Virus record (IMG/VR): IMGVR_UViG_3300040751_001964
Coordinates: 1-49,901 of that record
Source of the DNA: a virus
Strand: one strand, 5' to 3'
DNA: 49,901 bases
Shown: one piece after another, positions 13,813 through 40,073 of the stretch
Layout of the letters: the number at the start of each line of letters is the position of its first letter
How positions within the stretch are numbered: the stretch's first letter is position 1
Position numbers and translations under genes: made by a program
The notes under the pieces: model-generated
Database searches by the model: none
Seen by the model: only the letters and a program-made list of their open reading frames with translations
Told to the model about the DNA's origin: nothing

Positions 13813-15885
13813 TCATTTCCTAAACCTAATTGTTAAGCCGCCTGATATGTTTAATGGTCCTTTTAATATGCGCTTCTTTATAGCGGAACTAGGATGAGGC
13901 GTTGTAATCGGATAAGCAGCTAGATATGCAACTCTAGCATCACCGCCTTGTAATCTATTACGATCGCTCCATTCTGTGCCTTCTGCTGTAGTGCCTCTAG
14001 TATCATCATAAAAGTCTGCACTATCTTGGATCTCTACATTGTTTTGTATCCAGTTGCGTATATCATTATAATTCCAGCCTCTGTTATATTGTAACACTGT
14101 AGCTAAAAAACCTGCTGCTACAGGACAGGCTGCTGAAGTTCCGCTAAACCGTGTATCTCTACAATCACTTGATGTTGATAGCCCAGTATAACTATCATCA
14201 TAACGTGCAACATCTGTGCCGTATGTTCCTACTGTTGCAGCTAACGTACCATCTGCAGGTGCATATAAATCAATAGCATTGCCTGTATCGCTGTAATTAA
14301 CTTTACGTTCCTTTCCACTACCAAATGCATCATCTAATGCACCGATATTGATTACAGGAAATTTTACAGTAGTATTTCCTTGGCTAGTTTGAATTTCTGT
14401 TTTGCCTAGGTGTTGTGGAAATCCTCGTCTATTTGTAGTTCCAGTAACAGAGTAGCCAAATTCACTAAATGAATTTTCATATATGCCTTCGTCAACAGCA
14501 TCGCCAATATGATTATCATAATTTGGATCGTCTGGATCGACCTGCATTTGTCCAGAATTACCTGCTGCTGCTACAAAGATAAATCCACTATCCACAAGTT
14601 CTTTACCTGCCTGTGTCATAGAGTTGTCATACATTTCTGATTTCCAACGTCGAGTGCCTAGAAAAGTATCTCCGTCCAATCCCATGTATTTCATAAACTC
14701 TGGTTCATCATTTACTCCGGAGTAAGTAGTACCAGTGGCACTTTGAAAGAAATAATGACTTGCTACTTTTCCTGCTCTATATCCCCAACTGTTTGATCCT
14801 ATAGTTGGATCTTGTGTGCCATATAACGGATTCACAGGTTTATATTGATGAAATAATTTACATAGATCAAACCCTCTTTCTATACTGCCTGCACTTCCTG
14901 AACCGTAAAGATTTAAATGCCATTTATTACAATTATATGCCCAGCCATGTGTTCTTCCGAATATTAAACTACCACACTGTGTTCCATGATCTGCTGTGGC
15001 AGTTGAAGGGTATGCTGTGTTAGATCCGTGAACGCCTGCCCTAGTATAACTACTACTTACAGTTACAGTACCAATGCTTGAAAAAGCCGCAGAACGTTCA
15101 CTGCTATTTCCCCACCAAGTTCTTGCAACACTTTCAACAGGCACAATAGTACCGTCCCAACGTGTTTCTAATCTGTTGTCAGGGTCAGCATCAAACCAGT
15201 CTGGATCTATATAGTATGGGCCATCTAATACAACATCTAATACATCGCAGTATCCATTACCTGGTAATACATTCCCGCCCACATAGTCAGTTGGATTCAA
15301 TGGTGTGCCTGCATCAAAATTTACTCTATTTGGATTAATAAATTCAACGTGTCCTATCCAAGTACCGTTGTCCATACATATTACATCAACATGTTCTCCT
15401 GCACCTTGTTGTACAGGATCCCTATCAATATAATCAAAATTATTTAAACCACCGCTTATCCAAGGATTTCTTTTTTGTTTACAACGTATCAATTGATTGC
15501 TTGCACGGCTTACGTCTGCTGATCCGTCTTCAGTAAAAGATCCTAGTATAGCACCATTATTTGCCCAGAATTGCCAGTTTTTAACTGTTTGTCCATAACG
15601 AGAATAATTTTCAGCGTTAATATCTAATCTTAAGTCGTCATCAGTTGCATTAAAAATTTCAGGATATCTTGCAGGCGTTAAATTTATAAAATGTATTCTT
15701 GCATCTTCGCCTACCGTGGCAGCTTCTTCGTCTGTTAATAAAAACTCACCTCTTGTAGGACTATGATCTTTATGGTCTTCACAAGAAACATTTCTACCTA
15801 ACCAGCTGCCGTCTACTAATGCATCGTGTACTTCATCAAACAGCTCAGCTGAGTGTGTTGCAAGTGTATAATATTTTTCGCTCAT
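13813..15885 (-). CDS. Subtilisin-like serine protease (S8 family), virion-associated candidate
   Basis: A 690-residue protein with a complete subtilase triad: Asp172 in ICMDNG, His300 in DHGTQCGSLIFG, and Ser584 in SGTSAACPVAAGFL. The oxyanion Asn is N443 in VAAAGNSG. There is no signal peptide. About 165 N-terminal residues precede the catalytic domain, a large insert separates Asp and His, and the basic tail KRILKGPLNISGG follows the domain. It lies between gp4 and a repeat-rich fibre protein in the late structural block, with ribosome-binding site AAGGTGAT. It could mature virion proteins or digest host surface proteins on entry; the T4 prohead protease gp21 is a different family. Confidence 0.88.
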   Translation of the reverse strand: MSEKYYTLATHSAELFDEVHDALVDGSWLGRNVSCEDHKDHSPTRGEFLLTDEEAATVGEDARIHFINLTPARYPEIFNATDDDLRLDINAENYSRYGQTVKNWQFWANNGAILGSFTEDGSADVSRASNQLIRCKQKRNPWISGGLNNFDYIDRDPVQQGAGEHVDVICMDNGTWIGHVEFINPNRVNFDAGTPLNPTDYVGGNVLPGNGYCDVLDVVLDGPYYIDPDWFDADPDNRLETRWDGTIVPVESVARTWWGNSSERSAAFSSIGTVTVSSSYTRAGVHGSNTAYPSTATADHGTQCGSLIFGRTHGWAYNCNKWHLNLYGSGSAGSIERGFDLCKLFHQYKPVNPLYGTQDPTIGSNSWGYRAGKVASHYFFQSATGTTYSGVNDEPEFMKYMGLDGDTFLGTRRWKSEMYDNSMTQAGKELVDSGFIFVAAAGNSGQMQVDPDDPNYDNHIGDAVDEGIYENSFSEFGYSVTGTTNRRGFPQHLGKTEIQTSQGNTTVKFPVINIGALDDAFGSGKERKVNYSDTGNAIDLYAPADGTLAATVGTYGTDVARYDDSYTGLSTSSDCRDTRFSGTSAACPVAAGFLATVLQYNRGWNYNDIRNWIQNNVEIQDSADFYDDTRGTTAEGTEWSDRNRLQGGDARVAYLAAYPITTPHPSSAIKKRILKGPLNISGGLTIRFRK

Positions 15886-15893
15886 GTATCACC

Positions 15894-17534
15894 TTAAACT
15901 ATTGGACTTGTATCAACAATCTTCCATGCCCCATTGACATACATCTCAGGGCGGTTGTTTGTTGTGTTATAAATCATATCTCCGTTTTCAGCTGTAAGTG
16001 CGTCACGTTCGGCATCAGTAAAACTTGCAAGTTTAAACGGACTTTGAGTAACTGTTACCCTAGTTGCAGCAGTTAATAATATATCACTTTCAGAAACAAT
16101 TTCTGGATCACCTATTGCTCCTGTAACTATGTCTCCATTAACTCTTAAGTCATTATTTACAATTATATCATTTTGAACAGTTAGATCACTACTCATTACT
16201 ACGGCTGGTGTTATTGTTATTGCACTCGAGTCGTCTGTATCAATAACACTTGCAGCTAGAGTAAAGTTTCCAATTTGATCTCCAGGATCTTGGAATGTAA
16301 ATGATCCAGCGCCATTAGTAGTAAGTACTTGACCGACAGTACCGTCACTTATTCCTAGATCTGTAATGGTTGTAGGAGAATCAGTAATACCATAACCTGC
16401 TAATGTAGTTGGGGTAGATGTTAAGTCTGCAAATGCAACACTAGTAAGGTAAGAACTTAAATCAGGTGGAGTATAAGTAAAAATGCCACTAATGTTGTTA
16501 TAGCTCAAATCGGCAGTGCCTACACTATTAACAACTACTCCTAAATCTGTAAGACCTATTCCTGCATCTAATACTCTATTATCAATGTAGCTTTTTACAG
16601 CAAATTCTGTAGGTAATGTTGTTGTACTTGCATCTGCTAAACTTGCATCATTTGAAAATTCGTCAACGCTAATTCCTAGTCCCATCGATAATGCTGTTAA
16701 TCCACTAAATGATGTAGGCTTATTTGTTAAATCTGCATAACTTCCACCAAATAACAATCCCTGCGTATCATTTAATTGATTTATATCAGAAGGAATAGTT
16801 GGTCTTCCAGTTAAACTTAGATATTCTCCATCAAACAATAAACTTGTATTATCAGTTAAATCGCTTAAATCAACTGGTATTGTAGGTGCATTTTCTAGGT
16901 CGCTGTAGTCTCCTGAAAATATTGCAGGTTTGTTTGAAAGATTAGCGTAGTCTCCATCAAACGCATCTTGTATTCCATACCCAGCAATCGTTGTTGGTTT
17001 ATTTGTAATGTTACCAAATTCGATTGTAGAAGCAGTGATATCTCTAAACGTAAAGTTACCAGTACCGTCTGTAATCAATGCTTGACCTGCATTACCATCT
17101 ACTATACCTGATAGATCAGTTAAGTCTGTTGGTACAGATGGTCTATTTTGTAGATCATTATAATCACCTGTATAGGATACAGTTTTTAGGTTATCTTGAT
17201 AATTTACAACATTGTTAGCAGAATTGTCTGCTAACAATTTAAACCATCTACCTGAGTGAGCATAATATAATGCGCCAGTATCTTGAACAAGCACAACTAA
17301 TCCATTATATGTATTAACGTTTATATCTTGTAAGCCGCCTACATTTGTAACACTATTACTGTGTAAAAGTTTGTTAGGACCAAAATCAATATCGTTTGAA
17401 AGTAAATTAGTTCCGTCACCTAATAAACTGTAAACTTCATTAAAGTTACTGTTTATTTTTTCGCCACCTGTTCTTAAACCGTCACCAGAACCATCATTTG
17501 GTTGTAACCCTGTATTTAAAATTTGTTTGGCCAT
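15894..17534 (-). CDS. Repeat-rich tail fibre/structural protein
   Basis: A 546-residue protein. It begins MAKQILNTGLQPNDGSGDGL, a start I recall for marine phage fibre proteins. The middle carries about six imperfect repeats of the type Y-x-x-L-x-N-x-P-T (for example YNDLQNRPS, YANLSNKPA, YSDLENAPT, YADLTNKPT), each about 30-40 residues apart, as in many phage tail fibres. The C-terminus (residues about 440-546) ends with a TERDAL-type segment and NNRPEMYVNGAWKIVD, a common fibre-tip motif. It is probably trimeric and exposed on the virion. It ends 9 bases before the protease gene and is likely co-transcribed with it. Confidence 0.75.
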   Translation of the reverse strand: MAKQILNTGLQPNDGSGDGLRTGGEKINSNFNEVYSLLGDGTNLLSNDIDFGPNKLLHSNSVTNVGGLQDINVNTYNGLVVLVQDTGALYYAHSGRWFKLLADNSANNVVNYQDNLKTVSYTGDYNDLQNRPSVPTDLTDLSGIVDGNAGQALITDGTGNFTFRDITASTIEFGNITNKPTTIAGYGIQDAFDGDYANLSNKPAIFSGDYSDLENAPTIPVDLSDLTDNTSLLFDGEYLSLTGRPTIPSDINQLNDTQGLLFGGSYADLTNKPTSFSGLTALSMGLGISVDEFSNDASLADASTTTLPTEFAVKSYIDNRVLDAGIGLTDLGVVVNSVGTADLSYNNISGIFTYTPPDLSSYLTSVAFADLTSTPTTLAGYGITDSPTTITDLGISDGTVGQVLTTNGAGSFTFQDPGDQIGNFTLAASVIDTDDSSAITITPAVVMSSDLTVQNDIIVNNDLRVNGDIVTGAIGDPEIVSESDILLTAATRVTVTQSPFKLASFTDAERDALTAENGDMIYNTTNNRPEMYVNGAWKIVDTSPIV

Positions 17535-19958: not shown

Positions 19959-19966
19959 TATTTATC
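19959..19966 (-). promoter_or_regulatory. Late promoter GATAAATA before gp19
   Basis: A minus-strand octamer overlaps the gp18 stop codon and lies 22 bases before the gp19 ATG; the leader contains AGGAGC. Confidence 0.7.
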
Positions 19967-22900
19967 ATCCCGCCGATGCTATCTCGCCTGTGTTTTTAAG
20001 TCTTAATGGAATGTATATAAATTCAATTGACTTAACAGGTTCTATAGCAATATCTACGTAAAGTTCATTACGATCGATTCTCGAAGGTGTATTGTTTGTC
20101 TCGTCACATACAACTAAGAAGTCATACAGTGCTCTTTGACCTACAAGTTCTAATAGTAAACTTTCAACTTGTTGCTTAATCTCATCTCTAGTGATCTTGT
20201 CATTAGGTTCAAAGATATAAGGTTTTGCAAGACTGTTTAGTTGGCTACGTAAGTATACAACTAATCTTGCAACGTTGATTCTATCTAAAGAACTTGCACC
20301 TCTTGCACGAGTTTTTTGTCCATAGTTAACAAGGCCTGCACCTGTGATAAATGTAATTGGATTAACACTTTGTGCATAAAGTGTGTCTCTTTGTCCTTCA
20401 TTAAGTGCTACACTTACAAATTCTCCTTCGCTATTAATATAGCCTGTTGAACTTGCATTAGTAATGCCGCCACGTCTTGTACCTGCTGGTGCAAACCATG
20501 GATAAGAAACTTGATCGCTTAGTGCAATAGTTCTTAGCATCATGTGGCTTGGTGGAACAACTACATTGTTACCTGCATTGTCGCTTGTAAAGCCCCATGG
20601 GTAAAATACACCTAAGTATTCATCATTAGTAACAAGTCCGGTGTCGTTATCTTCGACTGCTACACGAACATTAGTTGCCCATTCATTTAATGAAGTTGCA
20701 TCAGGTAGTAATCTTGCTGGTGAATCACCTACAACAAATGCTGTTAATCCTCTATCAGCATTAAGAGTAATTAATTCTCCAATTAATTCTGAATAACCTG
20801 GTGCTGCAATTAGGTTAAATCTGCGAGCATCTTCGTTTCTAATTTCGTCGTTGCTGTTAACAACTGCTTGTAGTGCTTGTACAACAACTTTACGTTGTGC
20901 TTTACGCCCAAAGCTACCTGACCCATCTTCATTATTTCCGCTTACTGTAACCCAACGATCTTTTGCATAACCAGACATAAGTTCATCATTAAATCTTGCA
21001 TTAATGTCATTTACATCAATATAATTTTTATTGAATTGTTTTACGTTAAATCCGCTTCTGCGAGTATTGAATAACAGTGTTCCTTTTGGATACAGTGCTG
21101 GGTCTGGAGCATCTGGATCTAAGTAATTACTAGTAAGTAATGATTTAATAGTTGCTTTTGTGTTGCCTGTAGCACCACTAGATCCGTAACGTGCATCAGC
21201 AAATAAGATACCATTTTCTGTAGTTTGATCTCCGTTGTCTACAAGTGCCCATGTATCTGTAGCTTTCTTGTAGCGATAAATTACAGGATAGTTTTCTAAG
21301 TCTGAAGTATCTAACCATAAGTCACCGTCAACTAGTGCAGCACCGTCTGATTGTACAGTTGGTTGACTTGCACTTACAATTGGTCCGTTTACATCAGTAG
21401 GATCAGTTAGCGAATATACTGGGCTAGTACTGTCTTTATAGCCTACCCATACACTACCGTTATTGATCATAACATCAACTTCGTCAACAATTGAATTGTA
21501 CCATAATGTTCCCTCAGTTGAAGCTTGTGTAACTTCTGTAGCAGATGCAGTATAGCTTAATTCTTCCCAGTTACTTGCACGATATTGTTTTTGTACTGCT
21601 ACACTATTATCTACACCAGGTTCTGCAGAAACAAATCTTGTTCCTGTTTTTGCTGTGTAGTTATATTCTGAAATACCTAAACGAGAAATAACATCGCCGC
21701 CTGGGCTATCAGTTCTTTCTGTAAATCTAATTTCTCCGCCAGCGGAATGTTTGATTACAATTCTGTTACTCGAATCTACTTCAGCATTTACATACGGTAT
21801 TTTAGCACTTGTAATTGCTTCAGCAATTGCTGCTGCTAAAGCTGTAGCATCTAAACTGCCTGGAAAATCGATACTTGTTATACCCGGTGCTGTTGCACCA
21901 CTGAAAGTATCTGATCCTGGAGATGTTGATTCAATATCAAATTTGTAATTGCCTAATGGAAAACTAGTTGTGTCTATTATTCCTGAAGTAACTGTTGTTG
22001 CTCCAACTGCTCCTCTACGTAATACTTTAAAAGTTGCTAAAGGAACTGTATCTCCTGCAACATTACTGTTTACATACAAGTCGCCGATGTTTAAAGAATC
22101 ACCGCCGCCTGTTCTATCTAACTCTAATAAAGCAGCTTCTGCTGTAGGATAAATTGGAGCTTCAACAGAATCCCATAGTGCTGTATTTGAATTCCAAAGT
22201 TTTACTCTCCAGCGAGCACCTAAATTAGGAGTAGTAGTTTTTAACCAAACACTACCTGTTGCTCTACCATTATATCCTGAAGTTGTTTTAAAGCTATCAG
22301 GAACATTTGTGTGCTTACTAATTTGTAATAGTGGGGGTAAATATGTTCCGGCTGTTATGCCTAATTCTGTAAGTGCTACTATATCTCCACCTGTGCCTGC
22401 TGCAATAACAATTTCGCCTGCTTGTGTACTGTCGCCTGATCCTGAGCTTGTACCATCGCTGTATAACTCAAGTTCGCCGTTTACTTCTTCTGCACTAACG
22501 CCTGAAATTGATAAGCCATTAATTGTAGTAGCTAATGTAGCAATACTACCACTAACGTTCACTGTAGTACCGTTAATTGTCATTGTCGCACTTGTAAGTG
22601 TTCCTGTAGTTTTAGAACTTGTAATAGTTGGCCAAGATTCTTGCCAACCGTCGCTACCAACTTCAACCCAACCTGTTGTAGCTCTATACCAAATTCTGTT
22701 TATTGTTGAAACTGAAACTACAGCATAATCACCTATTGTGCCTACACTGTTTTTAGGAGCATACGGTGCGCTTCCTGATGTTTGGTTAACATCTGTAATT
22801 ACCAATGGAACTTTGTTTGTAAATGTTTGACCACCGGTTGTACTTTCTGCGTTGTTATTCCATTCTTGAATACCGTATAATGACGCTGTAGTATCTAACC

Positions 22901-23306
22901 AATATGTTCCATCTTCTGGATTAGCAGTAGGTGTGTCAGATCTTGGTGTTAGTTGTCCTAAGTCTACATCTGCTCTTACTACCCATGCTCTGTTGCTTAC
23001 TCCTAAGTACGAGTATGCTGCTTGTAAGCCGTATTCATTTAGTTCAGAACCATGAATTGGACTGTTGTTTGTGTCTACTTGGAATGTAGGATCGCCAAAT
23101 GTTTCAGCTAGGTCGCGCTGCGATGTAAGCAAATATGGTTTACCAGCATTTGCCTTTAGTGTGCCTACCGCAGTACCCGAACCTGAAGCATTTAATTTAT
23201 TTTGTGCCGATGCTACAAAAATTACTGGTACTGTACCTGGTTCAGCGGGTGTGTAGAAACTTTCATCTACTACGCTAACCTGTACACCTGGTGATGTTAA
23301 TGCCAT
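19965..23306 (-). CDS. 18: Tail sheath protein gp18 (extended)
   Basis: A 1113-residue contractile sheath protein; T4 gp18 is 659. The N-terminus MALTSPGVQVSVVDESFY is the typical sheath start with the PGV motif. The C-terminal core (residues about 800-1113) includes DRGLTAFVVGDSPARLLP, PPSHMMLRTIALSD and FEPNDKITRDEIKQQVESLL, and ends with YVDIAIEPVKSIEFIYIPL. Residues about 135-700 contain several beta-rich insertions (for example repeated DGTYWLDT/GDLWLDTSD-type elements), probably exposed on the outside of the sheath. An AGGAG ribosome-binding site precedes the ATG. Confidence 0.93.
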   Translation of the reverse strand: MALTSPGVQVSVVDESFYTPAEPGTVPVIFVASAQNKLNASGSGTAVGTLKANAGKPYLLTSQRDLAETFGDPTFQVDTNNSPIHGSELNEYGLQAAYSYLGVSNRAWVVRADVDLGQLTPRSDTPTANPEDGTYWLDTTASLYGIQEWNNNAESTTGGQTFTNKVPLVITDVNQTSGSAPYAPKNSVGTIGDYAVVSVSTINRIWYRATTGWVEVGSDGWQESWPTITSSKTTGTLTSATMTINGTTVNVSGSIATLATTINGLSISGVSAEEVNGELELYSDGTSSGSGDSTQAGEIVIAAGTGGDIVALTELGITAGTYLPPLLQISKHTNVPDSFKTTSGYNGRATGSVWLKTTTPNLGARWRVKLWNSNTALWDSVEAPIYPTAEAALLELDRTGGGDSLNIGDLYVNSNVAGDTVPLATFKVLRRGAVGATTVTSGIIDTTSFPLGNYKFDIESTSPGSDTFSGATAPGITSIDFPGSLDATALAAAIAEAITSAKIPYVNAEVDSSNRIVIKHSAGGEIRFTERTDSPGGDVISRLGISEYNYTAKTGTRFVSAEPGVDNSVAVQKQYRASNWEELSYTASATEVTQASTEGTLWYNSIVDEVDVMINNGSVWVGYKDSTSPVYSLTDPTDVNGPIVSASQPTVQSDGAALVDGDLWLDTSDLENYPVIYRYKKATDTWALVDNGDQTTENGILFADARYGSSGATGNTKATIKSLLTSNYLDPDAPDPALYPKGTLLFNTRRSGFNVKQFNKNYIDVNDINARFNDELMSGYAKDRWVTVSGNNEDGSGSFGRKAQRKVVVQALQAVVNSNDEIRNEDARRFNLIAAPGYSELIGELITLNADRGLTAFVVGDSPARLLPDATSLNEWATNVRVAVEDNDTGLVTNDEYLGVFYPWGFTSDNAGNNVVVPPSHMMLRTIALSDQVSYPWFAPAGTRRGGITNASSTGYINSEGEFVSVALNEGQRDTLYAQSVNPITFITGAGLVNYGQKTRARGASSLDRINVARLVVYLRSQLNSLAKPYIFEPNDKITRDEIKQQVESLLLELVGQRALYDFLVVCDETNNTPSRIDRNELYVDIAIEPVKSIEFIYIPLRLKNTGEIASAG

Positions 23307-26454: not shown

Positions 26455-27887
26455 TGCAACATTTTTACGATGCACAAATAAGAAGATACCTTGTTCAAAT
26501 AGTAAGACTGTTTGGACAATTTAGTTATCAAGACGGTAAAGGCAATAAAGTACAGGTACCAGTAACTTATGGTGATTTAACTAGACAAGTTGGTTCAATT
26601 ATTAGAGATAACTCAGAAAACAAAATACCAAGTGCACCTAGGATGGCTGTTTACATTACTGGCCTAGAAATGGATACTACAAGATTAGCAGACTCCAGCT
26701 ATATTAACAAATTAAATATTAGAGAACGTGCTTTAAATGCTGCAGGTGATGAATATTTAAATAAAGCGGGAAAAAATTATACAGTAGAACGTATTATGCC
26801 TACACCTTATACATTGTCAGTAAGTGTAGATATTTGGAGCACTAATACAGATCAAAAGTTACAAATAATGGAACAAATTTTAATGTTGTTTAATCCTAGT
26901 TTAGAAATACAAACTACGGATAACTATGTTGATTGGACTAGTTTGAGTGTCCTTGAAATAGATAACATTAATTTTAGTAATAGAACAATACCCACAGGAA
27001 CAGACTCTGAAATAGACATAGGAACTATTGGGTTGAAAACACCTATATTCATAAGTCCTCCTGCAAAGGTTAAAAAATTAGGTGTTATTACAGAAATTAT
27101 TACAGCTATTTTTAATGATAACGGTTTAGAAGTAAATATCCAAGATGACGCTTATGCTCAAAGTTTAATTCAACAAAAACTTGTAGACTCAAATGAAGGC
27201 ACTGAAACTCAACAAGGGCCTAGAGCTTCGTTGACCACTGAGGATGCTCTAGTAGCAACCAGCTATCAGAATTATGATATTGTAGTATTAGGTAATAAGG
27301 CTACATTGTATAAAAATGGAGTTGCAACAACTGACACTTGGACCGGATTTATTGCTGCGCAACCATTTAAATTTGAACCAGGGCTAACAGAGTTAAGATT
27401 ACAGCGTAACAACGATCTTGATATAATCATAACTATAGATAAAATTAATCCTGATAACGAATCGGAATTATTATTACTAGATGCAGATTCAGAAACCCTG
27501 CCTTCAAATACAATCATTTCAGGACCAGGTGGTGATAAAACATATGTTGAGTATATAATTGATCCGCAAAGATTTGACCCAAAATCAATTCAAGATTCAT
27601 CAACATATGTAAGACTACTATTATTAGGTAACATAGGTAATGTTAATAATACAGACGGTGCTGCTGCGTGGAAAAACAACGATAATACAGACTTTGTAGC
27701 AAGTGAAAATGATATTATTGAATGGGATGGCAACCGTTGGAATATTGTTTTTGATGCAAGCGAAACAAGTTCTGAAGCGTTTGTTCTTAATGCGAATACA
27801 GATACACAATACAAATGGACTGGGGAAATTTGGATATTATCGTACGAAGGTGAATATCCAAATGGCACGTGGCGTTTCGCATACTAA
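26454..27887 (+). CDS. 15: Tail completion/sheath stabiliser gp15
   Basis: A 477-residue homologue of T4 gp15 (272), which caps the tail tube and sheath at the head-proximal end. The first 230 residues contain the family pattern: YDAQIRRYLVQIVRLFGQF, TPYTLSVSVDIWSTNTDQKLQ near 115-135, EQILMLFNPSLEIQT, and TPIFISPPAKVKK. The C-terminal half is an extension ending KWTGEIWILSYEGEYPNGTW, similar in type to marine-phage gp15 proteins. It is coupled to gp14 by overlapping stop and start. Confidence 0.9.
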   Translation: MQHFYDAQIRRYLVQIVRLFGQFSYQDGKGNKVQVPVTYGDLTRQVGSIIRDNSENKIPSAPRMAVYITGLEMDTTRLADSSYINKLNIRERALNAAGDEYLNKAGKNYTVERIMPTPYTLSVSVDIWSTNTDQKLQIMEQILMLFNPSLEIQTTDNYVDWTSLSVLEIDNINFSNRTIPTGTDSEIDIGTIGLKTPIFISPPAKVKKLGVITEIITAIFNDNGLEVNIQDDAYAQSLIQQKLVDSNEGTETQQGPRASLTTEDALVATSYQNYDIVVLGNKATLYKNGVATTDTWTGFIAAQPFKFEPGLTELRLQRNNDLDIIITIDKINPDNESELLLLDADSETLPSNTIISGPGGDKTYVEYIIDPQRFDPKSIQDSSTYVRLLLLGNIGNVNNTDGAAAWKNNDNTDFVASENDIIEWDGNRWNIVFDASETSSEAFVLNANTDTQYKWTGEIWILSYEGEYPNGTWRFAY

Positions 27888-27900
27888 CATAATTAATTAT

Positions 27901-28332
27901 ATGAAGGATATAGTTTGTAGCGGTGCATTGTTTTATGCATTAGATCAAAAAAGATTTTTATTTTTACACAGAGCAAATAACAAACGAAATAATGTTTGGG
28001 GACTTGTTGGCGGCACCAATGAAGGTAAAGAAACACCTTGGGAAGGCTTACGTAGAGAAATTACCGAAGAAATAGGTGAAATAGAAATTAAAAAAACTAT
28101 ACCTCTAGAAACTTTTGTTAGCAATGATACAAAATTTCATTTCCATACATACTTGTGTTTAGTAAAAAACGAATTTATTCCTAAATTAAACAGCGAACAT
28201 GACGGATATGCATGGGTTAGTTTTGGATTATGGCCTAAGCCTTTGCATTATGGTTTACAGAATACCTTGACAAGAAAAAGTAATATAACAAAATTAAAAA
28301 CAGTATTTGAAGTAATAGATTTGGTAAACTAA
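27901..28332 (+). CDS. NUDIX hydrolase
   Basis: A 143-residue NUDIX protein using the ATG at 27901; the open frame extends back into gp15 and is not coding there. The NUDIX box is complete: G-x5-E-x7-REITEE-x-G, read from GGTNEGKETPWEGLR followed by REITEEIGE. Such enzymes hydrolyse nucleoside diphosphates linked to another group, for example oxidised nucleotides, nucleotide sugars or RNA caps. The substrate cannot be told. The stop overlaps the ATG of the cupin gene. Confidence 0.88.
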   Translation: MKDIVCSGALFYALDQKRFLFLHRANNKRNNVWGLVGGTNEGKETPWEGLRREITEEIGEIEIKKTIPLETFVSNDTKFHFHTYLCLVKNEFIPKLNSEHDGYAWVSFGLWPKPLHYGLQNTLTRKSNITKLKTVFEVIDLVN

Positions 28333-28670
28333 TGGACAATATAAAAGAAAAAGAATGGGGGTATGAGCTTGTCTGGGCAGACAACGAATATTATTGTAGT
28401 AAAATATTAGTGTTTGAAAAGGAAGGTATGAAAACTCAATTGCACTTTCACAAAGACAAACACAAAACCTGGTTTGTTAATGCAGGTAAATTTGAAGTAC
28501 AGTGGGTAGATCCTAAAGACGGTAAGGCATATTCTAAGGAGCTGCCTGAAGGTTCGGTATTTGACATTCCTCCATTATTTCCTGTCACATTAAAAAGTTT
28601 ATTACCCAATAGTGCTATGGCAGAAACTAGCAATAACAATATAGATGATGACTATTATAGGTTAAACTAA
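28332..28670 (+). CDS. Small cupin protein
   Basis: A 112-residue single cupin with a KEWGYELVWADNEYY start, QLHFHKDKHKTWFV (metal-binding His cluster near residues 37-46), and a second motif EGSVFDIPPLFPVTL. It resembles the C-terminal domain of the cytidylyltransferase-cupin at 971-1738 and type II mannose-6-phosphate isomerase tails. A role in nucleotide-sugar metabolism with the neighbouring NUDIX gene is possible. It overlaps its neighbours by 1 base at each end. Confidence 0.75.
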   Translation: MDNIKEKEWGYELVWADNEYYCSKILVFEKEGMKTQLHFHKDKHKTWFVNAGKFEVQWVDPKDGKAYSKELPEGSVFDIPPLFPVTLKSLLPNSAMAETSNNNIDDDYYRLN

Positions 28671-28930
28671 TGTTAAGAATAAGTCAATCCAAACAATTTA
28701 AAAAAGACTTTGCACGATATAAACGAGATATTGAAAAAATTTCAAATGACCGTGTAAAAGAGGAATGCAATGCTATCTTAAACAAATTGCTTAATGAATG
28801 TAGTTATATCGATGCTGTCCACGATGTAATCAACAAGTCGATTGATCCTACTAAGGTTAGAGAAAATATCGAACATAGTATTGTTCTACGTCAAAAATTA
28901 AATAAAATAATTAAAGATTCTAAAAATTAA
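28670..28930 (+). CDS. Small basic hypothetical protein
   Basis: An 86-residue, Lys-rich, helical protein starting MLRISQSKQFKKDFARYKRD. It is the last gene of the gp14-gp15 transcript and overlaps the stop of the convergent fibre gene by 4 bases. The first residues and the spacing of basic residues are faintly like RelE-type toxins (RISQSKQFKKDFARYKRD), but the catalytic pattern and the rest of the fold are not visible. Function is unknown. Confidence 0.6.
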   Translation: MLRISQSKQFKKDFARYKRDIEKISNDRVKEECNAILNKLLNECSYIDAVHDVINKSIDPTKVRENIEHSIVLRQKLNKIIKDSKN

Positions 28931-29769
28931 ATTAAACTTAATCTTTTAATAGTAATAGGACCTACCATTGGAGCATGAGACTGACATTGGTATCTATAGT
29001 TTCCGTTTAAAGTTTCTGGTATTCTCCAATATAACGTTCCGCTATCTTTTCCCTGGGCGTCTTCTCCGGTGCTAACAGTTCCATCTGTTGCAACATGAAC
29101 TAATCCTGTATTATACGGATCTCCAATTGGGCTTTGTATTTCAAAAGGATGTCCGGGTACTGCTGTTAAATCAAAAGCAATAGTTGTGCCCGAAATAGCA
29201 TATATATTTGGATTACTTCCTGTATAATGACTATTAAATGTATAAGAACTGGTTCCTACATTGTCTACTCTTAACATAACAATAGCAGGTTCGTATACTT
29301 TATCTACTGTAAGATTTGCGCTAGATGAATCTGTTAATTCTTGAAATGATATACTAGAACCAGTACTAGTTATAGTAAGTGTATCTGTTCCACTATTAGT
29401 TGTTATTGAAATGCCTGCACCTGCTGCAATATTAAGTGTATCTGTTATAATATCTGCCTGTAATGTATTTTGACCTGTAACAGCAATATTAGAAAATGCA
29501 TTTTGATTAACTTCGCCGCTACCGCCACCACTTACTGTACCTGGTTTCCATAGGCTGTTTGCATTATCCCAAACTAAACTTTGTCCGTCAGTAGGGGCAA
29601 CACTTGTTGTATCAACATCGTTAAGAGAATCTATGCTTGCAGATGATAGCGTAACAATTGCGTTATAACTAACAACGTTCCATGCTGCTCCGTCATACTC
29701 CCAAATGGTATCATTTTCGGTGTATGTATCGCCTTGTGTAGGACTATTTGGAAAGTTTATTGCTGCCAT
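28927..29769 (-). CDS. Fibre-like protein with C-terminal cupredoxin-like domain
   Basis: A 280-residue protein. The start MAAINFPNSPTQGDTYTEND and WEYDGAAW are typical of phage fibre adaptor segments; residues 45-130 are Ser/Thr-rich beta structure. Residues about 175-280 look like a cupredoxin: a possible first ligand H207 (PGHPFEI) and the cluster C262-Q-S-H265-A-P-M268 near the end, the same CxxHxxM spacing as in amicyanin. If folded, it could bind a type 1 copper ion. It follows the next fibre gene by 12 bases, in one late transcript. Confidence 0.72.
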   Translation of the reverse strand: MAAINFPNSPTQGDTYTENDTIWEYDGAAWNVVSYNAIVTLSSASIDSLNDVDTTSVAPTDGQSLVWDNANSLWKPGTVSGGGSGEVNQNAFSNIAVTGQNTLQADIITDTLNIAAGAGISITTNSGTDTLTITSTGSSISFQELTDSSSANLTVDKVYEPAIVMLRVDNVGTSSYTFNSHYTGSNPNIYAISGTTIAFDLTAVPGHPFEIQSPIGDPYNTGLVHVATDGTVSTGEDAQGKDSGTLYWRIPETLNGNYRYQCQSHAPMVGPITIKRLSLI

Positions 29770-29781
29770 AATTTACCTATT

Positions 29782-30933
29782 CTATCCGTATGTATTTGAA
29801 CTTGCAATCACTGTCCATGCGTTGCCTGTTCTGATTAATGTAAAACTTACTATATCTAGTTTATTACTTGTTCCTGCAGGAGCACTTCCCCCTATCCAAT
29901 TTATAGTTTGCGTAACTCCGTCAATTTGTGCACCTAAACTCATATAAGGTGTAGATCCTTGATCTAATATAAGTGCAATACTTACAGTTCTATTATTTGT
30001 GGTAGGCACATTGGTAAAGTTAGCAATGAAATTTCCTGCAATGTTAGTATGAGAAAAAACTGCGGAAGAGGAAAGATCATGCACAACAGTGCTTGTAGCA
30101 TTTGCTAGGCTTGTTACTATTTCTGTAGTTGAGCCAAATGTAGTTGATCCTGTTAGAGTAATATTTTGGTAATTTGTAGGAAGGTTAGTAAAATTATCAT
30201 AATTTAGATAATATGTTCCTTCTTGTCCGTCTAAAGTGTCTGCATCTGTTCCTGATCCACCGCTGGTAATGTCAGCAGAAGGTATCCAGTTTGTTCCATT
30301 CCATTTTAGTACTTGACCGGTTTCTGGCGCGGCTGTTTCAGTATCAACATCAGACAGATCATTTATAGATGTTGCTAGCGTAGGAAGGTTTGTTAAATCA
30401 TTATAGTCGCCACTAAATGTTGGCATTGCAGGTTGAACCCATTGACTACTATCTGCGTCTTGAATATAGATGTATAATTTTCCGTTAAGTGTATTGAGCC
30501 ACAAGTTCCCTACACTAGGATCTGACGGTGCTGATGCACCTATGTCTACACTTGCTCCGCCGCCGGAGTTTGATAATTCATCTAACCTTGCTAGTGCTAT
30601 CCAAGATCCTGTTTCTGAAGCAAAATATCCTCTATCTTCGGATTCTACATATGCAAACATTCCTACATTATTAGATGCTGTAGGTAAATCATTTACTGTT
30701 GCATAAGATTCCCAGGAAATATCTTCATTTGACAAATTTAAATTTGATAAGTTAACGTTACTTAGATCCGCTCTTGCTATTTCGAATCCACTAACATCTT
30801 TACCGCTGTATACACGTAAACTGCTTGTTTCTCTATTGAAGAATACTTCACCACTAGATCCTACGTTTCGATCTAAAAAATCGCCCGGTCTTGGTATAAT
30901 TCGTATTCTATCTACTATTGGTGCTGATGACAT
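29782..30933 (-). CDS. Fibre-like structural protein
   Basis: A 383-residue beta-rich protein. It starts with a baseplate-like segment (IRIIPRPGDFLDRNVGSSGEVF), followed by repeats seen in fibres: SAPSDPSVGNLWLNTLNGKLYIYIQ, then YNDLTNLPT and YDNFTNLPT. The C-terminal domain NRTVSIALILDQG ... VVSFTLIRTGNAWTVIASS is like the tips of other marine phage fibre proteins. It is probably a virion surface protein and is divergently transcribed from groEL. Confidence 0.72.
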   Translation of the reverse strand: MSSAPIVDRIRIIPRPGDFLDRNVGSSGEVFFNRETSSLRVYSGKDVSGFEIARADLSNVNLSNLNLSNEDISWESYATVNDLPTASNNVGMFAYVESEDRGYFASETGSWIALARLDELSNSGGGASVDIGASAPSDPSVGNLWLNTLNGKLYIYIQDADSSQWVQPAMPTFSGDYNDLTNLPTLATSINDLSDVDTETAAPETGQVLKWNGTNWIPSADITSGGSGTDADTLDGQEGTYYLNYDNFTNLPTNYQNITLTGSTTFGSTTEIVTSLANATSTVVHDLSSSAVFSHTNIAGNFIANFTNVPTTNNRTVSIALILDQGSTPYMSLGAQIDGVTQTINWIGGSAPAGTSNKLDIVSFTLIRTGNAWTVIASSNTYG

Positions 30934-31017: not shown

Positions 31018-33200
<2,183 letters not shown>

Positions 33201-34004: not shown

Positions 34005-34353
34005 TGGAGTAACATATCAAATACCTCCAGGCACAGAACACGTTTGGACTCCCCCAGAAGATGTTGTAGTTACCCCGCCGCGTGATGAAGTTGACGTTGC
34101 GGATGCTATTCACGGATTAAGAGTTCAAGGATTAGTTAGAAATCAAGATCAACAAAAAGTTGAAGAGTTATCTGACGGTCTTGGTTTGCTTTGGACAAAT
34201 TTTAAAGCAGGAAAATCTAGTAAAGATCAATTAACTAATCAACTTAGTGCATTTAGAAATAACAATTTGGTAAACGTAGAAGGTATAGACGATATTACTG
34301 TTCAGATCTTTGAAACAGTGATTATAAAAATATTAATGGAGAGCAATCTGTGA
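33985..34353 (+). CDS. Small Pro-rich-N-terminus protein, unknown
   Basis: A 122-residue protein with a good ribosome-binding site (AAGGAGA). Residues 14-33 are rich in Pro, Val and Asp (PPGTEHVWTPPEDVVVTPPR); the rest is helical. It is encoded directly before a halogenase with an overlapping GTGA start/stop, so the two are coupled. The Pro- and Trp-containing N-terminus would suit a carrier or substrate for the hydroxylases or halogenases, but this is only a guess from position and composition. Confidence 0.6.
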   Translation: MATKKVNGVTYQIPPGTEHVWTPPEDVVVTPPRDEVDVADAIHGLRVQGLVRNQDQQKVEELSDGLGLLWTNFKAGKSSKDQLTNQLSAFRNNNLVNVEGIDDITVQIFETVIIKILMESNL

Positions 34354-35954
34354 TCAAACCTGTCCAAAGAATTTTAATAGTCGGTGGAGGAAGCGCAGGT
34401 TGGATGAGCGCAGCTGCCTTAATAAAGGCATATCCTGAAAAGGAAATACTAGTTATTGAAAGTCCTGATGTGCCTATTGTCGGAGTAGGCGAAAGCACAC
34501 TAGGAGGCATTAATGACTATTGTAAGTTTTTAGGTATAGATGAAAAAGATTTTATGACTTACACTGATGCTAGTTATAAAATGAGTATAAAATTTACTGA
34601 CTTCTACGAAAAAGATGCTGGTGGATTTCATTATCCATTTGGAAGACCGCTTACTCAAGATACAGCCCACGGAATGGATGATTGGTTAGTTAAAAAAGCA
34701 TTATATCCGGATACTCCTCTTAACGATTTTGTACAGTGCTTTTTTCCAGGAGCAGCATTATGGGATGAAAACAAATTTTCACTAAACAAATATGGGATGT
34801 TTGACAACTACAACCCAGACAATGATGTTGCTTATCATTTTGATGCTACTAAATTTGGCGCCTGGCTAAGAGAAAGATACTGTAAGCCAAGAGGTGTAGT
34901 TCACATACAAGCAACTGTTGTAGATATTAAAACAAATGACAATGGCATCGAAAAACTAATATTAGATTCCGGTGATGAAATAAGTTCAGATCTTTACGTC
35001 GATTGTACAGGATTTAAAAGCCTGTTGTTAGGAAAAGCACTAGAAGAACCGTTTATTCCATATAACGATATGTTACCCAACAACAGAGCCTGGGCTACAC
35101 GAGTGCCATATAAAGATAAAGAAAAAGAATTAGAGCCGTTTACTAATAGCATTGCTATTGAAAACGGTTGGGTATGGAATATTCCTAGCTGGGAAAGATT
35201 AGGTACAGGTTATGTATACAGTGACAGATTTGTTACTCCGGAAGAAGCACAAGAAGAATTTAAACGCCACTTAATGAGCGATAAAATGATTTGTCCTCGC
35301 ACAAGAGAAGAAGTAGATGCCTTAGAGTTCAAAGATATTCAAATGCGAGTTGGTATACATGAAAGAACTTTTGTAAAAAATGTAGTAGCTATAGGATTAT
35401 CTGCTGGATTTATTGAGCCGCTGGAATCAAACGGACTATACACTGTACACGAATTTCTTTTCAAGCTAATAAAAACTTTAGAGCGGCCAGCTATTACGCA
35501 ATGGGATAAGGACGTATATAACTCAGCAGCATTTGGCATGTGGAGAAACTTTGCACAGTTTGTTGCAATGCATTATGCATTAAGTATAAGAAACGATACA
35601 GAATATTGGAGGGCAAATGCAAACAGAACATATTCTCCAGGAATGCCAACACTAGAGCCAGAAACTGCAATCGGATTTTATAGATTACAAGGTTCTAAAA
35701 TGTTTGAGTATACCCATAATTCTGATATTGCAGGAATTAACTGGATTAGTGTAGGTATGAACTATTTTGTTTCAGACAAAACAACAATTGAAATGCGACA
35801 AAATACTACCGGAGAAAATTTTAGAATATCTTATGATCCGATTTTTAGAATGTGGGAAGAAAGAAAAGCTCGTTGGAGAGAGACAGCAAAGAACTGCCCA
35901 AGTTTATATCAGTATCTTAAAGATAATATTCATAATAATGAAGGACAGGAGTAA
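34350..35954 (+). CDS. Flavin-dependent halogenase-like protein 1
   Basis: A 534-residue 'tryptophan halogenase' family protein with a GTG start. The FAD-binding GGGSAG is at 12-17, and the conserved catalytic Lys is K77 (DASYKMSIKF). The halogenase WxWxIP motif is at 274-279 (WVWNIP), and the GFIEPLES block contains E359-S360, matching the Glu/Ser pair of PrnA. Such enzymes use FADH2, oxygen and halide to form HOCl or HOBr that is guided by the Lys. A related cyanophage enzyme (VirX1) halogenates, and iodinates, diverse substrates. A flavin reductase is not in the window and would come from the host. Confidence 0.88.
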   Translation: MIKPVQRILIVGGGSAGWMSAAALIKAYPEKEILVIESPDVPIVGVGESTLGGINDYCKFLGIDEKDFMTYTDASYKMSIKFTDFYEKDAGGFHYPFGRPLTQDTAHGMDDWLVKKALYPDTPLNDFVQCFFPGAALWDENKFSLNKYGMFDNYNPDNDVAYHFDATKFGAWLRERYCKPRGVVHIQATVVDIKTNDNGIEKLILDSGDEISSDLYVDCTGFKSLLLGKALEEPFIPYNDMLPNNRAWATRVPYKDKEKELEPFTNSIAIENGWVWNIPSWERLGTGYVYSDRFVTPEEAQEEFKRHLMSDKMICPRTREEVDALEFKDIQMRVGIHERTFVKNVVAIGLSAGFIEPLESNGLYTVHEFLFKLIKTLERPAITQWDKDVYNSAAFGMWRNFAQFVAMHYALSIRNDTEYWRANANRTYSPGMPTLEPETAIGFYRLQGSKMFEYTHNSDIAGINWISVGMNYFVSDKTTIEMRQNTTGENFRISYDPIFRMWEERKARWRETAKNCPSLYQYLKDNIHNNEGQE

Positions 35955-35956
35955 CA

Positions 35957-36586
35957 ATGTTAATAAACAATATTTTTTCTGGCAGATTAGAGCCATCTGC
36001 TACAGTGGGCGGATGCATTGATATATTCGAAAATGCATGGCCCGACCCTGAGTTAACAATTGCTAGAATTGAACAAGAATGTTCAGATGTTAATTCAGGT
36101 GTAGGCTGGAGTAGAGCAGGAACTGTTGGTCAAGGTCATCGACAGAATGCACGAACAAACCTAGGGCTAGGAGTTACGTTAGCCGGCGAATCTGTAGACA
36201 GTCAAGCAATGAAAGATATACACAATCAAATGTATTTCTTATTATTAGCAACAACTATTCCTTATACAGAAAGATATGAGATGAATGAATACTTGTATCA
36301 TGAACAATATCAAGCATTAAAGTACAGAGGCGGCGAAGAATACAAAGCTCATTATGACGGTGGTACAATGTCAGGGAGAGCTGTTAGTGCTGTTGTTTAC
36401 TTAAACGATGATTATGTAGGCGGTGAAATAGAATTTCCCAACTTTAAAATAAAACTTAAACCCGAAAAAGGAATGCTAATTTTATTTCCTTCTAATTTTG
36501 CTTATAGACACATTGCACATCCAGTTACCGAAGGAACAAAATACAACTTGGTAACATGGATACATGATCGTCCAATCGAAGGTTAA
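35957..36586 (+). CDS. Prolyl-4-hydroxylase-like 2OG-Fe(II) oxygenase B
   Basis: A 209-residue protein of the PKHD/P4Hc type. The triad is H132-Y-D134 and H185, and the 2-oxoglutarate-binding basic residue is probably K195 (GTKYNLVTW). GRAVSAVVYLNDDYVGGEIEF is the central part of the double-stranded beta helix. It has a strong ribosome-binding site (CAGGAG) and follows halogenase 1 directly. It differs from the other oxygenases here by its 100-residue N-terminal part. The substrate is unknown. Confidence 0.85.
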   Translation: MLINNIFSGRLEPSATVGGCIDIFENAWPDPELTIARIEQECSDVNSGVGWSRAGTVGQGHRQNARTNLGLGVTLAGESVDSQAMKDIHNQMYFLLLATTIPYTERYEMNEYLYHEQYQALKYRGGEEYKAHYDGGTMSGRAVSAVVYLNDDYVGGEIEFPNFKIKLKPEKGMLILFPSNFAYRHIAHPVTEGTKYNLVTWIHDRPIEG

Positions 36587-36591
36587 GTTTA

Positions 36592-37239
36592 ATGGATAAT
36601 GTTGTATTTTTTAAAGAAAATAAGTATGTAGAAGTAAAAAATGTATTAACTACAGAACTAATTAATATCGCAACTACATATGCATTGCTGGATGAAAGAA
36701 ACGACCTCTCATTAGAAGAAGGAGACACTCCGCAAATCCTTAATTCTCACAGTAAATATGCAGATACACTAATGGAAAGTTTTTTATTGTATTTGCAACC
36801 TATATTAGAAGAAAATACAGGCTTAGAATTATTGCCAACTTACTCTTATTATAGAGTATATAAACCAGGCGCAGATTTAAAAAAACATATAGATCGCCCT
36901 GCTTGTGAAATTTCAACAACTGTATCCTTAGGATTTGATTATAAAGGATCAGACTACAATTGGCCTATATTTGTAGGTGATAGCGAATGTTCTATGAATC
37001 CTGGAGATCTTGTAATTTACAGAGGCTGCGAAGTTGAACACTGGAGGGAAGTTTTTGAAGCACCTGAAGGATCATGGCATGTACAATTCTTTTGTCATTA
37101 TGTTGATGCAAACGGGCCAAATAAAGATTGGAAATTTGATCAGAGACCGTTTATTGGTTACGACAGGGAAGGTAAAGTACATAAAATTGTAAGCAAGTAT
37201 TATTATCCAACTAAAAAATATTTAACGTTCACAGGGTAA
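36592..37239 (+). CDS. 2OG-Fe(II) oxygenase-like protein C
   Basis: A 215-residue protein with H99-I-D101 (LKKHIDRPACE) and H150 (CEVEHWRE) as likely iron ligands inside a double-stranded beta helix: ISTTVSLGFDYKG, then MNPGDLVIYRGCEVEHW. The usual C-terminal Arg for 2-oxoglutarate is not obvious (SWHVQFFCHYV). I recall very similar proteins in T4-like cyanophages. It lies between two other oxygenase genes in one operon, with gaps of 5 bases on each side. Confidence 0.75.
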   Translation: MDNVVFFKENKYVEVKNVLTTELINIATTYALLDERNDLSLEEGDTPQILNSHSKYADTLMESFLLYLQPILEENTGLELLPTYSYYRVYKPGADLKKHIDRPACEISTTVSLGFDYKGSDYNWPIFVGDSECSMNPGDLVIYRGCEVEHWREVFEAPEGSWHVQFFCHYVDANGPNKDWKFDQRPFIGYDREGKVHKIVSKYYYPTKKYLTFTG

Positions 37240-37814: not shown

Positions 37815-38524
37815 AAAGTAAAATTGAAGATTTTATAGGTATATATGAAAATGATATAAAGCTAGGCATTTTTGGTGATAGTACAGCAGACCCAGTTGAG
37901 TGGTTAAACCACAGTTGGGTTGAATTATTAGCAAAAGAATATAAATTTACAAATTTTGCTAAACAAGGTAGCTCACTACTTTATACATATAACAATATTT
38001 GTATTGAACACCATCAATTTGATAAAATAATTGTATTCATTCCTCCTGTTGGTCGTCTTTGGGCGCCTAATTGTCTTATAAATCAGCATTTCTTAAATCA
38101 CAGAACAGTAGAATTATATTACGAAAATGCAGATTATTCTGATAGAAAAATATTAGATTCAATAAAAAATTATTTTATATATGTATCAACGTTTGAAAAA
38201 GAAATTTTGCAGCATAACGCAATAGTAGATAGTATAAAGTGTAAAATTCCAAACGCACTAATTATTCCTGTTACTAAACATTCGATAGAAAATTTTGAAG
38301 GTGTTTGTATGCACGACATAAGTATAATTGATTATGAATTTTATAATGTACATCCGTATACTCCAGATTTTGGAAGGACTTGCCATATGAATAAAGAAAA
38401 TAATCAAATTTTTTATCAAAAGATAAAACAATGGTTAGATAGCAATGATTTTATTTTATCTATAGATGATTTTACAACTCCAGTAGAGACAAAAGAGGAA
38501 CTATTTCCAAATGAAAAATATTGA
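37811..38524 (+). CDS. SGNH-hydrolase-like protein
   Basis: A 237-residue protein. The block I-like GIFGDSTADP (residues 18-27) has the nucleophile Ser of the SGNH/GDSL family; FAKQGSSL and IIVFIPPVGRLW follow as in blocks II and III, and DFGRTCHMNKENNQIF near residue 190 provides a late His. It might remove or transfer acyl groups on glycans, as SGNH O-acetylesterases do. It is embedded between oxygenase D and halogenase 2 with overlapping ends. Block III is weak, so enzymatic activity is uncertain. Confidence 0.6.
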   Translation: MKSKIEDFIGIYENDIKLGIFGDSTADPVEWLNHSWVELLAKEYKFTNFAKQGSSLLYTYNNICIEHHQFDKIIVFIPPVGRLWAPNCLINQHFLNHRTVELYYENADYSDRKILDSIKNYFIYVSTFEKEILQHNAIVDSIKCKIPNALIIPVTKHSIENFEGVCMHDISIIDYEFYNVHPYTPDFGRTCHMNKENNQIFYQKIKQWLDSNDFILSIDDFTTPVETKEELFPNEKY

Positions 38525-40073
38525 TCAAAATTTTAAATTTGTAATTGTTGGTGGCGGAAGCGCAGGTTGGATTTCTGCTCTTTTTGTTAGAGCAAACTTT
38601 CCTAATAGTAAAATCACTGTAATACAAAGTAGCGAAATTGGAATATTAGGTGCAGGCGAAGGAACTACTCCTCACATAATAGATTATCTAGACGAAATCG
38701 GTGTTCCTATTAGTAGACTCGTTAAAGAAGCCAAAGCAGTTCTTAAAAGCGGAATAAAATTTTCTAATTGGAACGGTGATAGAAAATATTACTATCACTC
38801 TTTTATGGATATACCAGATTTAGACCATACAATTGCTAGCGAGCTAAATCACACTAGATATCCTTTATTAGACTTAGAAGTAATTGCAAACAGAGGTTCA
38901 TTAGACGACATTGGATTTAATGCATTAGCTAGCGACAGAAACTGTGTTAGATTTGTTCCAAATGCAGATGCTACAAATAAAGATTTAGATCCCATTTTAC
39001 ACTTTACTAGACTAGGGAGAACATCATTACACTTTGATGCTAATCTACTAGCAGAATGTTTAGAAGGCATAGGTAAAGAAAGAAATATCGAAGTTATTGA
39101 CGGCATTGTTTCTGATTTTACATTGGATAACAATGGTAATATTGTAACTGTTAATATCGGAGAAAGACAGATTAAGTCAGACTTTGTATTTGACTGTTCG
39201 GGATTTAAACGATTAATTATAGGTAATTTATATAAAACTCCTTGGAAAAGCTATAAAGACTATCTTCCGGCAAAGCGAGCTATGCCATTTTTTATCCCGA
39301 ATAATTCTCAAGTTATTCCTCCATACACCGATTCAACTGCAATGAAGTGGGGGTGGATGTGGAAGATCCCTGTGCAGGGAAGATTTGGATGCGGTTACGT
39401 TTATGACAGTGACAGAGTAACTGACGATGAAGCTAAATTAGAATTAGATCAAGAAATTGGTTTTGAAGTTGAAGTTCCTAGATTAATAAACTTTGAACCA
39501 GGACGATACGAAAAAATTTATGAAAAAAATTGTTTAGCTATTGGATTAAGTTCAGGATTTATCGAACCCTTGGAAGCTACATCTATTTGGACATCTTTAA
39601 TGATGCTGAATGCATGGATTGAAAATCCATCTGCTATTACACACGATGATGAGTTGGCAAGAGATAAAGTAAACAAACGCCACACTGATATGAACGATAA
39701 TACTTTAGGATTTGTATACTTTCATTATATAACAAAAAGAGAAGACACAGACTTTTGGAAAAAATTTACTGTGGACAACAAAATACCAGAATCATTGCAG
39801 AAGTTAATAGAAGAATCAAATCATACTATACCAAGCTATGATATGTTCTCAAATATCGGACTAGACTGGGCTGCAAAAAGTTTTCTTGCCTGTGGAAATG
39901 GACAAAAGTTTTTTAATCCAGAACATGCTAAAAAATTATTTGAATCTTTCTACAATGGTAGACGAAAAGACGAATATGATCTTTTAAAATATCAATATTT
40001 TAAAAATTTAAATTTAAATTTACCTTTAGTTACTGATCATTATTCGTTTATAGAATATTTAAGGAATAACTAA
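38511..40073 (+). CDS. Flavin-dependent halogenase-like protein 2
   Basis: A 520-residue halogenase-family flavoprotein. GGGSAG is at 14-19, the catalytic Lys is K79 (KAVLKSGIKFSNW), WMWKIP is at 282-287, and E355 lies in FIEPLEATS. It is closer to halogenase 3 than to halogenase 1 (shared GIKFSNW, RFGCGYVY/RHGCGYVY and EPGRYEK/DPGRSEK blocks). The start overlaps the SGNH gene by 14 bases, and the stop overlaps oxygenase E (TAATG). Confidence 0.88.
   Translation: MKNIDQNFKFVIVGGGSAGWISALFVRANFPNSKITVIQSSEIGILGAGEGTTPHIIDYLDEIGVPISRLVKEAKAVLKSGIKFSNWNGDRKYYYHSFMDIPDLDHTIASELNHTRYPLLDLEVIANRGSLDDIGFNALASDRNCVRFVPNADATNKDLDPILHFTRLGRTSLHFDANLLAECLEGIGKERNIEVIDGIVSDFTLDNNGNIVTVNIGERQIKSDFVFDCSGFKRLIIGNLYKTPWKSYKDYLPAKRAMPFFIPNNSQVIPPYTDSTAMKWGWMWKIPVQGRFGCGYVYDSDRVTDDEAKLELDQEIGFEVEVPRLINFEPGRYEKIYEKNCLAIGLSSGFIEPLEATSIWTSLMMLNAWIENPSAITHDDELARDKVNKRHTDMNDNTLGFVYFHYITKREDTDFWKKFTVDNKIPESLQKLIEESNHTIPSYDMFSNIGLDWAAKSFLACGNGQKFFNPEHAKKLFESFYNGRRKDEYDLLKYQYFKNLNLNLPLVTDHYSFIEYLRNN

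Follow-up and report, generated by a model that had tools for sequence, protein, structure and literature searches.

Phage fibres often bear Ig-like β-sandwiches, and structural metal ions are known at the fibre tips of other phages, with iron present in some tail tips. Phage-encoded cupredoxins are also known, in the form of the plastocyanin gene petE of cyanophages (PMC3037559). The product of petE is a free electron carrier of the host type, whereas the cupredoxin domain considered here lies within a predicted virion protein. The nearest described relatives of that protein are tail proteins of T4-like cyanophages. Mass spectrometry of purified virions detected one of them, S-SZBM1_206, through 9 peptides that cover 24.9% of it (PMC9146016). 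The same protein (SSZBM1_206) carries the cupredoxin domain with its ligands intact. A search of open papers for cupredoxins or type 1 copper linked to phage tails returned nothing relevant. Neither the fold nor the site is new, but none of the open papers found describes them on phage tail proteins or the retention of the ligands there across marine T4-like phages. Individual sequences may already carry such an annotation in domain databases.

The locus and its virus

The window, by which we mean the whole stretch of DNA analysed, is a 49,901-base virus record with T4-type genes for tail sheath, tube, adaptor, sheath stabiliser and large terminase, and it also encodes UvsX and gp32-like proteins. 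The nearest relatives of its terminase are found in PA5oct-like Pseudomonas jumbo phages, at 53%. The open reading frame under study, at 28927..29769 on the minus strand (stop codon 28927-28929), encodes a predicted tail-type virion protein of 280 amino acids. In our working picture it belongs to the tail, or to the periphery of the baseplate, of a marine myophage related to T4.

Three parts can be distinguished in this protein, all encoded on the minus strand. Residues 1-35 (29665..29769) form a small β module of the NFPxxPxxGDTYxxxxTxWxWDGxxWN type, for the most part predicted with a pLDDT of 84-95, and many relatives of the protein begin with the same module. Residues 36-110 (29440..29664) make up a low-confidence linker or shaft, rich in serine, threonine, asparagine and aspartate, which contains the repeat motif LNDVDTT..GQSLVWDN, has a mean pLDDT that is mostly ~44-57 and gives PHROG tail matches. 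The C-terminal cupredoxin domain, residues ~163-276 (28942..29283), is supported by a profile match, an AlphaFold2 model, fold matches and sequence profile matches in the PDB. The first of its predicted copper ligands is H207 (codon 29149..29151), in a G-H-P-F motif that aligns with the G-H-S-F histidine of rusticyanin. Sequence and alignments give the other three as C262, the predicted thiolate ligand and the sole cysteine of the protein (28984..28986), H265 (28975..28977) and M268, the predicted axial ligand (28966..28968). These four residues had been proposed as a copper site in an earlier note on this DNA, and all are present in the translation at the positions it gave.

The adjoining upstream gene (29782..30933, minus strand) encodes a protein of 383 amino acids with an N-terminal SAPIVDRIRIIPRPGDFLDRNVGSSGEVFF module. 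In at least four relatives this module is joined directly to a cupredoxin domain, and the fusion therefore suggests that the two window proteins may share one assembly.

Adjoining this pair, and divergent from it, is a phage-encoded GroEL chaperonin (31033-32628, plus strand; PHROG 5725, E 3.9e-171). Beside the gene for the 280-residue protein lies a small ORF that appears cupin-like by eye (28332-28670, plus strand; QLHFHKDKHKTWFV), and a further adjoining ORF (27703-28332, plus strand) is NUDIX-hydrolase-like, also by eye. Elsewhere, the window contains three separate tryptophan-halogenase-like genes (PHROG 2928) at 34350-35954 (plus strand), 38511-40073 (plus strand) and 42799-44220 (minus strand), and close to these halogenase-like genes are a 2OG-Fe(II) oxygenase match (35957-36586) and a PHROG match to 'ferrochelatase' (36592-37239). 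The tail sheath protein (19965-23306, minus strand) is long, with 1113 residues against the 496 positions of the PHROG 23 sheath profile, and its match to the common sheath core in that profile is limited to its C-terminal half.

Identification of the cupredoxin domain

A phmmer search of the full 280-residue protein against the PDB gave no match, and a profile was therefore needed. When a 19-row profile of the phage domains was run against all PDB sequences with hmmsearch, the matches were almost exclusively blue copper proteins. Plastocyanin 2plt is the best of these (E 2.9e-6), rusticyanin 1a8z (E 3.2e-5) and amicyanin (E 4.6e-4) are also matched, and further matches include copper nitrite reductases, pseudoazurin and azurin. 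One cytochrome c oxidase subunit 2 entry, likewise of the cupredoxin fold, is found among them. In the rusticyanin alignment GFGHSFDI stands opposite the phage GHPFxI, and in the plastocyanin alignment the phage cysteine and histidine stand opposite those of plastocyanin.

Matches from single sequences are weaker, and comprise Copper-bind, amicyanin and plastocyanin models. In Pfam, the whole protein gives a sub-threshold match to MBB1 only. The domain sequence by itself scores 13.8 bits (E 0.08) against Copper-bind (PF00127), under the gathering score of 21.2, and by that score it is outside the family; 9 of 19 relatives also match the family weakly, with a best E of 0.0011. In an alignment of 28 phage domain sequences H207, P208, Y260, G194 and F199 are invariant; the rows were chosen by C262, H265 and M268, which are not counted as conservation there.

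The spacing of the ligands had been likened to that of amicyanin, and this proves right for the C-x2-H-x2-M cluster and wrong for the first histidine. With a ligand-masked profile, C92, H95 and M98 of amicyanin (sequence as in 1aac) fall opposite C262, H265 and M268 without a gap. In the same alignment the first histidine is shifted by two, because proline pairs with proline, and the distance from this histidine to the cysteine is 55 residues in the window protein (H207 to C262) as opposed to 39 in amicyanin (53 to 92). The corresponding distance in rusticyanin is 53 (85 to 138).

With an input of 84 sequences drawn from viral contigs and the window, AlphaFold2 models residues 150-280 with a pLDDT of 92.8 and a pTM of 0.85. 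Save for short helical turns the domain is all-β in the model, which bears out the β-rich background described before. H207 is placed just ahead of a strand, C262 ends the penultimate strand and M268 is just ahead of the last one, which is, as modelled, the cupredoxin arrangement. Both homology to cupredoxins and the ligand order His...Cys-xn-His-xn-Met in the right strand context are thus found. In a model of the full-length protein (pLDDT 83.1), the small β module is seen at residues 1-35, the stretch ~40-100 is predicted unreliably and the C-terminal domain reaches ~98.

The best PDB matches of the model in Foldseek are rusticyanin, laccases, amicyanin and pseudoazurin, with E values of 9e-6 and up and modest TM-scores of 0.4-0.54. 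VIA-align matches copper nitrite reductase with Z scores of up to 11.2 (rmsd 2.4 Å over 109 residues); for the N-terminal cupredoxin domain of the three-domain Hyphomicrobium nitrite reductase, Z is 9.9. The model and both fold comparisons agree on a Greek-key β-sandwich of the cupredoxin type. The best-scoring stretch of nitrite reductase (residues 163-312) is presumably the domain that lacks a type 1 site, and the fold alone is therefore no proof of copper. Taken together, the profile matches, the predicted fold and the conservation of the ligands strongly support residues ~163-276 as a real cupredoxin domain with a complete set of type 1 copper ligands, as had been proposed from the residue spacing. 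The degenerate fold offered as an alternative in the earlier note does not fit the window protein; degenerate copies sit in other proteins.

Distribution and probable virion location

The earlier note had considered a site of this kind unusual on a phage, an expectation that the distribution overturns, since the domain recurs across marine T4-like phages. By tblastn, 288 phage records match at E 0.01 or better, nearly all of them cyanophages, with Methylophilales and marine single-cell viruses in addition, and each of the 16 phage genomes examined has between one and five copies of the domain. Of 100 open frames of the window-protein type, 90 have the domain at the C-terminus, as do 80 of 81 cyanophage connectors. 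In a third protein group it is mostly internal and occurs in up to four copies. The labels 'tip' and 'fibre', which had been applied to the domain, are unproven, given that it is C-terminal here and internal or repeated in other relatives.

Two related architectures were seen in passing. Four viral-contig loci, and others similar to them, encode large marine phage fibres with up to four cupredoxin domains, and among these copies are some without copper ligands or with glutamine in place of the axial methionine. In the window itself, the protein encoded at 13813-15885 (minus strand) matches PHROG 9158, a profile whose end (591-695) is a cupredoxin domain in other phages. The window protein ends before that part, so that the domain has been gained or lost between relatives.

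Detection of S-SZBM1_206 is accompanied by a second indication from cyanophages. The S-SCSM1_231 record bears the tag '(virion protein)'. In that phage ORF213 and a D-alanyl-D-alanine carboxypeptidase, which are named as detected by mass spectrometry (PMC9602691), carry this tag as well, and other proteins, such as the short tail fibre, are without it; the tag thus probably records detection. By analogy, the 280-residue protein of the window would also be located in the virion.

Beyond phages, genome contigs contain secreted-type proteins of marine Flavobacteriaceae that are 50-58% identical to one phage domain sequence and thaumarchaeal proteins at about 30-35% identity, forming a series from phage towards cellular proteins. 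The likeness to Flavobacteriaceae suggests that the cupredoxin domain may have been exchanged between phages and bacteria. The Flavobacteriaceae proteins (loci L270 to L288) are large, with the cupredoxin domain at their end.

Proposed copper binding and alternative explanations

The reading that we favour, at a probability of roughly 0.7, is that this genuine C-terminal cupredoxin domain most likely binds one copper and is displayed on the tail for docking or stability. One copper ion would be bound through H207, C262, H265 and M268 within the C-terminal ~115 residues. The N-terminal module and the linker would anchor the protein to the tail or to a neighbouring protein, with the C-terminal domain facing outward as a compact β-sandwich. 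At one end of this sandwich, the copper site would pin the G-H-P-F strand, or first histidine loop, to the C-x2-H-x2-M loop, and the metal may in this way lend the domain stability and shape. The exposed face around a copper-ligand histidine, which serves for docking in other blue copper proteins, may do so here as well, with a host surface molecule or another tail protein as the partner. Copper occupancy, a single-site geometry and a role in docking or stability are what we infer for the window domain; more broadly, the conserved ligands suggest that phage particles carrying this domain may contain copper.

Conservation of the ligands was assessed on domains gathered, to avoid circularity, with a profile in which the columns of the four ligands had been masked; they came from the window and 349 loci, some of which had been obtained with search patterns containing H207 or C262. 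All four ligands are present in 222 of the 262 distinct phage domains in this ligand-masked collection, and in 111 of 130 at 80% redundancy. By column (n = 262), C262 is conserved at 96%, H265 at 94%, M268 at 91% and H207 at 91%, which places all of them among the nine most conserved columns, while identity over most of the domain falls to ~30%.

This contrast bears on the best-surviving alternative, in which the cupredoxin fold is metal-free, serves solely as an Ig-like adhesive or spacer β-sandwich and retains its ligand residues as a frozen relic. We consider this improbable. Such sandwiches are frequent in phage fibres, and ligand-less paralogues (YCYY, YSSG, TNNY and FGMM at the four positions) still match the fold profile, as the metal-free reading would have it. 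The same paralogues indicate that copper is not simply needed for folding, and it can therefore be argued that the metal has a selected role in the copies that keep the ligands. Also against a relic, the ligands tend to vanish jointly, two to four of them being lost together in some internal repeats of large fibres, and in a few phage domains methionine is replaced by glutamine, which is the axial ligand of stellacyanin. Apparent losses of H207 in a few domains (e.g. TCHM) resemble short alignment shifts. Joint loss is significant by a Fisher test on related sequences (p 8e-7); on a tree built without the ligand columns there are 4-5 independent pairs for it and 0 against, too few for significance. 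Because of the relatedness of the sequences and the non-significant tree signal, joint loss is used as supporting evidence only.

A metal other than copper, such as zinc, or whichever metal is available, may instead act as a structural staple, comparable to iron in some phage tail tips. Zinc and further metals are taken up by cupredoxin sites in vitro, the VIA-align fold matches include a nitrite reductase mutant that contains zinc (1ntd), and the structural ions at the fibre tips of other phages provide a precedent. The retention of soft cysteine and methionine ligands with two histidines and the exchange of methionine for glutamine are, however, typical of copper sites, and the profile matches are to copper proteins, so that we regard this possibility as quite unlikely.

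Still harder to sustain, and in our view very unlikely, is a redox role, in which a copper centre on the virion swaps electrons at the host surface or senses redox conditions, and thereby triggers or tunes infection. The ligand set is complete and includes an axial methionine, the loop around that methionine is conserved, and copper redox proteins are familiar to cyanophages, which also have free plastocyanin genes. Against this, no partner, electron path or conserved second centre was found, and the domain forms part of structural proteins, which have one to several copies of it, some of them ligand-less. That several redox-active type 1 copper centres on the tails of marine T4-like phages recognise a partner on the host surface or react with it, and that the availability of copper in the sea affects infection, is an improbable proposal.

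That the spacing of H, C, H and M arose by chance in a β-rich protein, a concern as long as copper binding was read from spacing alone, can be dismissed almost entirely, given the homology to blue copper proteins, the motif's retention across non-redundant relatives and its rarity: of the window's 57 ORFs with 100 or more amino acids, the one for the 280-residue protein alone contains C-x2-H-x2-M, where 0.056 occurrences would be expected by composition and 0.095 by shuffles, and the motif appears in 41 of 200,000 shuffles of that protein.

If the preferred reading is right and copper is indeed bound, a large proportion of the phages in the ocean would be particles that carry copper. There would then be a clear handle for asking what a metal does on a phage tail. 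A tail protein that is widespread and has been annotated mainly by analogy with T4 would also gain a hypothesis on its function.

Comparison with known systems

Profile similarity to established cupredoxins, including plastocyanin, rusticyanin, amicyanin and the N-terminal domain of three-domain copper nitrite reductases, extends over residues ~187-275 of the window domain, which also shares with them the β-sandwich, the His...Cys-x2-His-x2-Met order and a Cys-His-Met loop ahead of the last strand. The window domain differs from them in its long insertion between residues ~216 and 240 and in its position within a phage tail protein whose N-terminus has no apparent secretion signal. The context of the first histidine also differs, being G-H-P-F rather than the P-H-N of amicyanin and plastocyanin. 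Although the C-x2-H-x2-M loop is that of amicyanin, the spacing and context of the first histidine indicate that the domain is not an amicyanin, and in this feature it resembles rusticyanin.

Among phage protein families, residues 36-275 match PHROG 677 (E 1.8e-41), a tail family annotated 'baseplate wedge tail fiber protein connector' and comprising gp9/gp10-like proteins of T4-like cyanophages. The matched part, positions 172-409 of the 412 in the profile, includes the C-terminal cupredoxin domain. The N-terminal part of the family (profile positions 1-141), which is presumed to mediate baseplate attachment, is absent from the 280-residue protein and is matched instead by a separate window protein of 546 amino acids (15894-17534, minus strand). 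The label 'connector' therefore needs care, and only the shared domains are claimed here. The closest counterparts are the cyanophage tail proteins S-SZBM1_206, S-SCSM1_231 and, in P-SSM2, PCMG_00028 and the proximal tail fibre, which have the same domain with all four ligands intact where read. Unlike the window protein, in which the domain is C-terminal, these cupredoxin-bearing tail proteins vary as a group, with the domain at the C-terminus, internal or repeated.
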